Positions 1,515 through 2,383 of a stretch of 22,702 bases of DNA are shown here, one piece after another. Position 1 is the stretch's first letter. Each line of letters starts with the position of its first letter. The translations under genes and the position numbers were made by a program. The DNA is from a virus: positions 1 to 22,702 of the IMG/VR virus record IMGVR_UViG_3300030012_000718; one strand, given 5' to 3'. The notes under the pieces are model-generated. The model saw only the letters and a program-made list of their open reading frames with translations, was not told the origin of the DNA and did no database searches.

Positions 1515-1576
1515 TTGACAGGGGTATACCCCTAATATATATTAAGAATGTAGTATACAACCGAGAGGTTTTCTAA
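1515..1576 (+). promoter_or_regulatory. Promoter, palindromic operator and leader, copy 1
   Basis: A consensus sigma-70 promoter: TTGACA (1515-1520), a 17-nt spacer, and TATATT (1538-1543). The spacer begins with the perfect 12-bp palindrome GGGGTATACCCC (1521-1532), a likely repressor or activator site because a bound protein there would cover the polymerase footprint. The leader ends with ACAACCGAGAGGT plus TTTCTAA before the ATG, in which GAGAGG is the ribosome-binding site about 8 nt from the start. The whole arrangement recurs at 2325-2383. Confidence 0.75.
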
Positions 1577-1822: not shown

Positions 1823-1962
1823 TGCAAAATTTTCTAATGATGTTAGCAGCGTCAGGGTTGTTTTTTACAGCCCTTTCATCAAGCCTATATGACATGACAG
1901 TTACAGCGTGTAAAAGTCAAGTAGGTAACTATGAATTAGCTTGTAAGGAGGTAAACAAATGA
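1822..1962 (+). CDS. 46-residue protein with signal-peptide-like N-terminus
   Basis: A short gene starting within the stop of its neighbour (TAATG) with a strong AAGGAGG ribosome-binding site upstream (around 1807-1812). The product begins MQNFLMMLAASGLFFTALSS, a hydrophobic segment that could be an uncleaved anchor or a Sec signal. It ends in a small hydrophilic tail with two cysteines (C30 and C41), which could form a disulfide if exported. The strong ribosome-binding site, the tight packing and the ATGA overlap with the next gene support it as real. Function unknown. Confidence 0.65.
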   Translation: MQNFLMMLAASGLFFTALSSSLYDMTVTACKSQVGNYELACKEVNK

Positions 1963-2162
1963 ATAAAAAGAAAATAGAAAAAGAACATCATGCACAGATA
2001 TATAAAATGTGTACGCAAAGATTAAAAAAATACTCTATTGATGCTTTTTATAAAGATGACGCAATAAATAAAATAATAAATATTTGTTTATCTCATATGA
2101 AATACAAGCATATAGTCAAATTTTATGATGTATTAGAAAAAAATGGATTTAATAAATATTAA
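1959..2162 (+). CDS. Small Lys-rich protein of unknown function
   Basis: A 67-residue basic protein (MNKKKIEKEHHAQ start) predicted mostly helical, with two cysteines and no membrane segment. It starts inside the stop of the preceding mini-gene (ATGA), with AAGGAGG about 8 nt upstream (around 1946-1952). It is the third gene of the short operon driven from the 1515-1543 promoter and ends immediately before the candidate structured RNA. I recognise no family. Confidence 0.7.
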   Translation: MNKKKIEKEHHAQIYKMCTQRLKKYSIDAFYKDDAINKIINICLSHMKYKHIVKFYDVLEKNGFNKY

Positions 2163-2168
2163 TGAAAA

Positions 2169-2305
2169 AATAATAGTCGGGAAGCCTGATAGTTAGATTT
2201 TTTAGAGATAGATCTAACTTGAAAGTTATACAAAACCTATAAGCTCCATAGGAAAGACAGGGCAAGAAAACAATTTAGACTTGATCTATCTCCCGACTAA
2301 TTATT
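2169..2305 (+). ncRNA. Candidate structured RNA with alternative folds
   Basis: A non-coding stretch of about 137 nt closed by a long inverted repeat: TAGTCGGGA (2174-2182) pairs with TCCCGACTA (2291-2299). AATAA/TTATT extends it outward after a one-base bulge at A2300. Inside are AGTTAGAT (2191-2198) pairing with ATCTAACT (2212-2219), and CCTAT (2236-2240) pairing with ATAGG (2248-2252). GAGATAGATC (2205-2214) is also perfectly complementary to GATCTATCTC (2283-2292). That pairing would compete with both the closing stem and the first hairpin. It could be a small RNA, an attenuator or switch, or a processed 3' end. It lies just upstream of the second operator module. It resembles no RNA class I can name. 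Confidence 0.5.
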
Positions 2306-2324: not shown

Positions 2325-2383
2325 TTTATAGGGGTATACCCTTGTTATATACTATAAATATACACAACCGAGAGGTCTTCTAA
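2325..2383 (+). promoter_or_regulatory. Promoter, palindromic operator and leader, copy 2
   Basis: Second copy of the module at 1515. A weaker -35 (TTTATA, 2325-2330) is followed at once by GGGGTATACCCT (2331-2342), one base off the perfect palindrome of copy 1. The -10 is TATACT (2348-2353), with a 17-nt spacer. The leader ACAACCGAGAGGTCTTCTAA (2364-2383) differs from copy 1 at one base and again places GAGAGG about 8 nt before the ATG. The operator-to-start distance is 53 nt here and 56 nt in copy 1. Confidence 0.7.

Follow-up and report, generated by a model that had tools for sequence, protein, structure and literature searches.

The DNA analysed here, hereafter the window, is a virus record of 22,702 nucleotides (G000) whose portal protein has its closest counterparts, at 47-48% identity, in three siphoviruses of Synechococcus (S-CBS1, S-CBS3 and S-LBS1). 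The RNA that we describe is numbered on its + strand. It follows genes for a RusA-like resolvase and a DNA methyltransferase, in a region of two modules that each start with a promoter bearing a GGGGTATACCC palindrome, where it separates the final ORF of module 1 from the module 2 promoter (Table 1). The earlier note, which had proposed a structured RNA at positions 2169-2305, gave its positions and sequences correctly. It was also right that the interval contains no ORF, that it directly precedes the second operator module and that it sits at the end of an operon, a placement that proves general among the copies described below.

The promoter modules at 1515-1585 and 2325-2392 are near-identical, with the GGGGTATACCCC palindrome sitting between the -35 and -10 elements, and they share a leader (ACAACCGAGAGG..TCTAAATG) that is followed by unrelated ORFs. 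This arrangement suggests a putative array of small-gene modules under operator control. In other contigs the RNA has related operators (GGGTATACCC, GGGGTTGACC) on its 3' side.

Table 1. Positions in the window of the parts of the RNA and of the features that flank it.
Feature	Position	Strand	Remarks
Probable operon promoter, TTGACA-17-TATATT with GGGGTATACCCC operator	1515-1543	+	11/12 consensus match only
Last ORF of the module 1 operon	1959-2162	+	67 aa, unknown; stop 13 nt before P1
P1 closing stem, 5' strand AGUCGGGA	2175-2182	+	About 97% of cells paired; AGTCGGGA pairs with TCCCGACT (2291-2298)
Junction AG-CCU-GAU	2183-2190	+	In the 71 host copies, from a covariance-model search, CCUGA is near-invariant
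P2 hairpin	2191-2219	+	Stem 2191-2200/2210-2219; loop variable
Junction UGAAA, P3a 5' strand GUU (2225-2227), AUACAAAA internal loop	2220-2235	+	Near-invariant
P3b hairpin CCUAU/AUAGG	2236-2252	+	Stem variants across homologues
AAA internal loop, P3a 3' strand GAC (2256-2258), A, GGG	2253-2262	+	AARRCARGG conserved
P4 hairpin CAAG/CUUG	2263-2283	+	Double changes at all four pairs
Linker AUCNAUC	2284-2290	+	A, C and AUC mostly kept in the 71 host copies
P1 closing stem, 3' strand UCCCGACU	2291-2298	+	Same evidence as 5' strand
Operator of the next module GGGGTATACCCT, second GGGGTATACCC-type copy	2331-2342	+	3' of the RNA

Fold and covariation

Positions 2175-2298 of the + strand encode a folded RNA of about 124 nt, composed of a closing stem (P1), a hairpin (P2), an arm (P3) with an inner helix (P3a) and a further hairpin (P4). 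The earlier note had recommended an energy-model fold and a search for covarying pairs in homologues, and both checks came out in favour of a structured RNA. The + strand of 2169-2305 folds better than chance, at -31.5 kcal/mol against -20.9 +/- 3.4 kcal/mol for shuffled sequences (z -3.15; one of 200 shuffles as good). The consensus reads, in its 5' half, P1 (7-8 bp), AG, CCUGAU, P2, UGAAA and P3a (3 bp), and in its 3' half an 8-nt/3-nt internal loop (AUACAAnA/nAA), P3b, ARGG, P4, AUCNAUC and P1. Two elements of the original drawing need revision: the closing stem encloses three conserved hairpins (P2, P3 and P4) rather than two, and the five extra outer pairs (AATAAT/ATTATT) are unconserved, the outermost pair persisting in no more than 67-68 of 85 sequences and nothing beyond it being kept.

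A conserved structured RNA with covarying pairs in phages is very strongly supported. In an alignment of 85 distinct viral sequences, pairing holds in 95.6% of cells and double changes occur at 17 of the 22 pairs; the 274 double-changed cells compare with 65.5 in shuffled alignments, and none of 500 shuffles reaches this value. Sliding the partners by a single column brings pairing down to 43-52%. This alignment was fitted to a covariance model; anchor-based counts, MAFFT counts and unbiased RNAalifold all agree with it, the last recovering P1, P2 and P4 from 31 diverse sequences, with double changes at 12 pairs. Covariation is also evident in the 71 host copies that we describe below, with 244 double-changed cells versus 92 in shuffles (0/500 shuffles as high).

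Between homologues the helices swap completely, and the junctions stay constant. Compensatory changes in P1 include A-U/G-C/U-A at the inner pair, U-A/C-G and G-C/G-U, and its G-U variation is compatible with the + strand only. P2 shows double changes at all six pairs around an unconserved loop, with stems such as GUUAG/CUAAC, GACCU/AGGUC, GAUCC/GGAUC, AGCUG/CAGCU and GUCUG/CAGAC. Homologous P3b stems (CCUA/UAGG, CCC/GGG, UUGUAG/CUACAA, UUGGA/UCCAA, UUCG/CGAA) and P4 stems (CAAG/CUUG, CAGA/UCUG, CAUG/CAUG, CACG/CGUG, CAGCC/GGCUG, CGG/CCG) are similarly diverse. Most phages have U-A as the middle pair of P3a, most hosts C-G; these positions are paired in 98% of copies versus 77% when shuffled, or 92.5% versus 67.6% in hosts alone. 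In viruses, the constancy of CCUGAU, UGAAAGU and AAGACARGG partly reflects how the copies were selected, as the viral searches demanded short core motifs; the covariance-model search that yielded the host copies did not demand CCUGA, and CCUGA is near-invariant there too. A pseudoknot between CCU (2185-2187) and RGG (2260-2262) may also form and would be compatible with the fold. This pairing is unproven because only one position varies, on one side, and RNAalifold favours an extension of P2 that uses the same bases.

Copies in phages and cyanobacteria

Covariance models, patterns and flanking-protein scans together yielded at least 96 distinct complete viral cores, normally one per contig. 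A model built on 39 sequences (R1) matched 88 places in 99 sources, and the longer virus records tested hold one strong copy apiece. The cultured carriers, MED4-117 (57 bits, E 1.2e-11), MED4-184 and P-HS2 (region 98% identical), infect Prochlorococcus MED4. S-CBS1, S-CBS2, S-CBS3, S-CBS4, S-LBS1, PSS2, P-SSM2 and P-SSP7 have no copy. Sequence comparison by blastn against 50,697 phage records returned nothing, though MED4-117 carries the RNA; a covariance model is therefore needed. Short patterns performed poorly, with one true and four chance matches for an exact 17-nt hairpin pattern, and 119 stretches, none of them real, among the matches listed from a pattern scan of genome contigs. Loop combinations in the phage copies are mosaic.

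Several viral contigs carry further features. At L113 (6271-6380) a shortened copy has P1-P3 followed by unrelated sequence and resembles a decaying copy. In L025, L053, L124 and L125 the RNA is followed by another conserved element of hairpin-like form (AACAAGTCTGCGCC..AAGACGTCTTTCTTGTTTTTCTGC), which may be a terminator. A weak NsiR1 match (23 bits against a gathering score of 39, E 0.016) adjoins the most divergent viral copy at L290 5195-5248 (+).

The same RNA is found in cyanobacteria. A pattern search of 386 cyanobacterial genomes picked out one genome (G343, 2.79 Mb) with at least two copies, where the full model R2 finds 17 copies at 36-89 bits. Carriers make up 20 of the 34 genomes of that genus and at least 42 of the 300 genomes sampled from its family, with 1-17 copies per genome and few matches in genomes smaller than 2 Mb. 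Membership of a phylum set centred on a Nostoc record, genome sizes of 1.2-3.3 Mb and the connection to phages together suggest that these are marine Synechococcus-type picocyanobacteria. We took 71 host copies for close examination. Degenerate host copies also occur. The TM2 gene tested, which precedes a host copy, is unique to a single genome among the 34 of the genus. In an orthologue comparison of gene and RNA, both upstream genes examined proved nearly strain-specific; together with the degenerate copies, this indicates that the modules turn over with accessory genes.

Phage and host copies occupy a common position. Relative to a same-strand stop codon, 89 of 96 viral copies start at -1 to +38 nt (mostly 5-13), behind genes of 28 unrelated families that range from 43-aa ORFs to a 680-aa helicase. 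What comes next on the 3' side is a convergent gene, a terminator or the operator-promoter of the following module, with neither terminator nor operator recognised in 36 of 95; the viral terminator count is inflated by operator palindromes scored as terminators, about 26 of 95 being clean. Among host copies, 53/71 begin 5-46 nt past a same-strand stop, following 31 gene families that include RTX-type, signal-peptide and TM2 proteins. An intrinsic terminator falls within 75 nt in 48 of these 71 copies, versus 2-8 of about 70 (3-11%) at each set of control positions, and at L362 three gene-RNA-terminator units stand in succession. To judge from this arrangement, the RNA looks like a 3'-UTR module in both phage and host.

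Some host loci have additional neighbours. In G343, at L320, L323, L325 and L328, a near-identical 5' flank of ~150 nt (..GATTCCGGAGATGGTGTGTGCATCGG..) precedes unrelated ORFs ending in the RNA, so that flank and RNA are shared while the gene differs. Nif11-type leader-peptide genes adjoin the 3' side of the RNA at L329 and L309 of G343, and a pair of strong Cyano-2 RNAs (RF01702, 172-178 bits; L308 11165-11364 and 14392-14592), 3 kb apart, lies a few kb from a copy in the same genome. At L369 a double-glycine-type small protein is encoded immediately before the RNA.

Relation to sRNA-Xcc1

The window RNA matches no Rfam family at threshold, and no match overlaps it up to E 5; weak matches to NsiR1, L10_leader, RMST_4 and SNORD126 were taken as chance. 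Our search of the open-access journal literature on phages and cyanobacteria found no paper describing it. The suggestion of a previously undescribed phage RNA holds to this extent. It does not hold in that hosts carry the RNA too and that a distant relative, sRNA-Xcc1 (RF02221), is on record.

The window itself does not match RF02221, either at gathering or up to E 5. One host copy gives a weak full-length match (22.5 bits, E 0.045-0.09) and another reaches 13.8 bits; these best copies stay below the gathering score of 53 bits. In the opposite direction, the Rfam consensus of sRNA-Xcc1 located three loci in a plasmid collection. A model of cyanobacterial copies only with P2 removed (R3) finds exactly these three, at full length and E 1.7e-4 to 3.4e-4, with no further match up to E 10 in 438,705 bases (0.44 Mb) from 47 sources; its E-values are rough, and the separation of the sRNA-Xcc1 loci from the rest is clean. 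The full model R2, which includes P2, misses them, which identifies P2 as the main difference.

Judged by sequence and architecture, the RNA is a distant, enlarged relative of sRNA-Xcc1. Their closing stems belong to one sequence type (the sRNA-Xcc1 copy on a P. aeruginosa plasmid reads GUCGGGA/UCCCGAC), and both have an arm in which the internal loop AUACAAnA/nAA surrounds CCC..GGG, followed by P4, a linker and the 3' strand of P1. Every element of the sRNA-Xcc1 architecture (closing stem, 8/3 arm, AUACAAnACC..GG.AA core and P4) is found in the RNA, and the 8/3 internal loop is a specific feature common to the two. In contrast, sRNA-Xcc1 lacks the P2 hairpin and its CCUGAU/UGAAA core, which the aligned viral and host copies possess. 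At the sRNA-Xcc1 loci examined, a gene begins 50-75 nt downstream of the RNA (one for a hypothetical protein, with a transposase gene after it, or a BRO family gene), whereas the phage and host RNA directly follows a stop codon. Additionally, sRNA-Xcc1 is borne by integrons, transposons and plasmids of proteobacteria. It is multi-copy in places, with seven copies in Xylella (PMC12189769), and in Xanthomonas, the only case known, it is a discrete 88-nt RNA detected by Northern blot, with ends mapped by RACE (PMC2996969). The title of Chen et al. 2011, as it appears among the references of PMC12444791, calls it trans-acting.

The comparison thus links three things that were unlinked in the sources searched: a cyanophage RNA, a multi-copy 3'-UTR RNA of cyanobacteria, and sRNA-Xcc1. 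A structured 3'-UTR RNA that phage and host alike place after dozens of unrelated genes would be without precedent in these sources, and with P-HS2 as a cultured carrier on Prochlorococcus MED4 its function is directly testable.

Possible roles of the RNA

We tentatively propose that the RNA is an operon 3' UTR that would act in cis as a 3'-end cap and might be trimmed to a stable RNA. It represents the phage branch of a family common to marine picocyanobacteria and their phages. Having no promoter of its own, it would be co-transcribed from the promoter near 1515 and form the 3' UTR of that operon. Its compact four-helix fold would then cap the 3' end, blocking 3'-to-5' decay of the upstream mRNA or binding a protein that does so, and the RNA itself may persist in a trimmed, stable form delimited by P1, like sRNA-Xcc1 in Xanthomonas. 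The parts of this proposal differ in strength. Co-transcription with the upstream gene is very probable, since no conserved promoter lies upstream and the 28 viral and 31 host families of unrelated genes end a few nt from P1. A role in cis is probable to a lesser degree, as the presence of up to 17 copies, following different operons, in a single genome argues for a cis element over a redundant trans RNA. Capping that protects the mRNA from 3' exonucleases, perhaps with a trimmed RNA left over, is put forward with more reserve; for a compact fold flanked by a stop codon and a terminator, a cap would be the simplest cis role. When P-SSP7 infects MED4, a phage factor induces host RNase E, and antisense RNAs have been proposed as protectors of phage transcripts in this system (PMC9692554). 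Judging from this one system, phage transcripts may need protection, and selection for it would be plausible in the phages that carry the RNA.

Several observations sit uneasily with a cis cap and lead to the competing explanations. The known sRNA-Xcc1 loci are upstream of genes, that RNA is called trans-acting in a paper's title (as referenced in PMC12444791), and in 36 of 95 viral copies no terminator or operator was recognised downstream. A processed small RNA cut from the 3' UTR and acting in trans on other RNAs or on a protein is the nearest competitor, though on balance unlikely: the 88-nt relative seen by Northern blot and RACE (PMC2996969) speaks for it, but the loops of the phage and host RNA are highly variable, no long conserved unpaired seed lies outside the junctions, and up to 17 copies across the operons of one genome would be redundant. 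A second difficulty for the cap is that a simple hairpin would be enough for REP-like protection, so that the ~35 near-invariant junction nucleotides suggest binding or catalysis. Small RNAs derived from 3' UTRs are common in bacteria, which counts for the trans reading as well. A self-cleaving ribozyme at mRNA 3' ends, or another RNA there with a specific site for catalysis or a ligand, would account for the near-invariant CCUGAU, UGAAAGY, AUACAAnACC, AARRCARGG and AUCNAUC amid freely varying peripheral hairpins. We nevertheless consider it improbable, as the RNA matches no ribozyme or riboswitch family in Rfam and the ends reported for sRNA-Xcc1 enclose its entire stem and do not mark an internal cut. 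A hammerhead-like reading (CUGAU..GAAA) was rejected on this lack of a match and on misfitting stem II spacing, and the C-stem of a K-turn or box C/D-like reading of GAU/UGA was looked for and not found. In a broader version, which we rate as unlikely, a module with its own site-specific activity (self-cleavage, or ligand or protein sensing) would travel on the 3' ends of accessory genes between marine cyanobacteria and phages, setting mRNA fate in a regulon copied by the phage, as part of a superfamily that includes sRNA-Xcc1.

Two further explanations fare worse than the 3'-end cap. An attC-like mobile or cassette-boundary element, RNA or DNA, could promote exchange of the preceding gene; the upstream gene is hypervariable and the element fixed, near-identical 5' flanks precede unrelated ORFs in several host units, the tested TM2 gene occurs in just 1 of 34 genus genomes, and phage loop combinations are mosaic. 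Ordinary homologous recombination at a conserved RNA would give the same pattern, however, and phages normally hold exactly one copy. Neither an integron integrase (TIGR02249) nor R/L boxes were found in the three genomes tested (G343, G634 and G624). The strand-specific G-U pairs and conserved junction core, which rule out an insertion sequence or MITE for the window copy, likewise indicate selection on RNA. We consider an exchange element improbable. The earlier note had favoured a switch or attenuator in which 2205-2214, which lies within P2 and takes in part of its loop, pairs instead with 2283-2292. This 10-bp pairing can be drawn, but it is an accident of the window copy: among 54 distinct P2 loops only that of the window has complementarity above 6 bp. 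The longest complementary stretch averages 3.54 bp over these loops versus 3.47 bp over shuffled ones. Forcing the alternative gives -23.2 versus -27.1 kcal/mol, a cost of about 4 kcal/mol. Because the second pairing relies on a variable loop and occurs in one copy alone, the switch is not supported. No conserved exclusive pairing tied to a downstream terminator or start was found, and the downstream gene is often on the opposite strand, where termination could control nothing. We regard a switch as highly improbable.

Comparison with known systems places the RNA, with its preferred role as a 3'-end cap, among several partial likenesses. REP/BIME elements are dispersed folded repeats in the 3' UTRs of unrelated genes that stabilise upstream mRNA; a REP is a simple, short hairpin, and RAYT transposases are associated with it. 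In host genomes the RNA is likewise dispersed in many copies in 3' UTRs behind unrelated genes, but at 110-125 nt, with four helices, an invariant core and a single copy in phages, it is no simple palindrome. Integron attC sites, which are folded and follow the stop codons of variable genes, act as single-stranded DNA with an integrase; the RNA shares their position directly after the stop codons of variable genes. The lambda sib retroregulator, a simple RNase III hairpin controlling int, is a phage 3'-UTR structure that acts on the upstream gene, and has neither sequence nor fold similarity to the RNA. The L17 downstream element (RF01708) is a structured 3'-UTR RNA, described as highly unusual in bacteria (PMC2864571); it serves one gene, that of ribosomal protein L17, whereas the RNA of cyanophages and their hosts serves many unrelated genes. 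Proteins with a Y1_Tnp domain (PF01797) number three in G343, one in G624 and none in G634. In another genome, G337, three copies of equal score each lie ~100-200 nt from the end of a contig (C9, C18 and C26; L382-L384), as if a recently duplicated repeat had broken the assembly.
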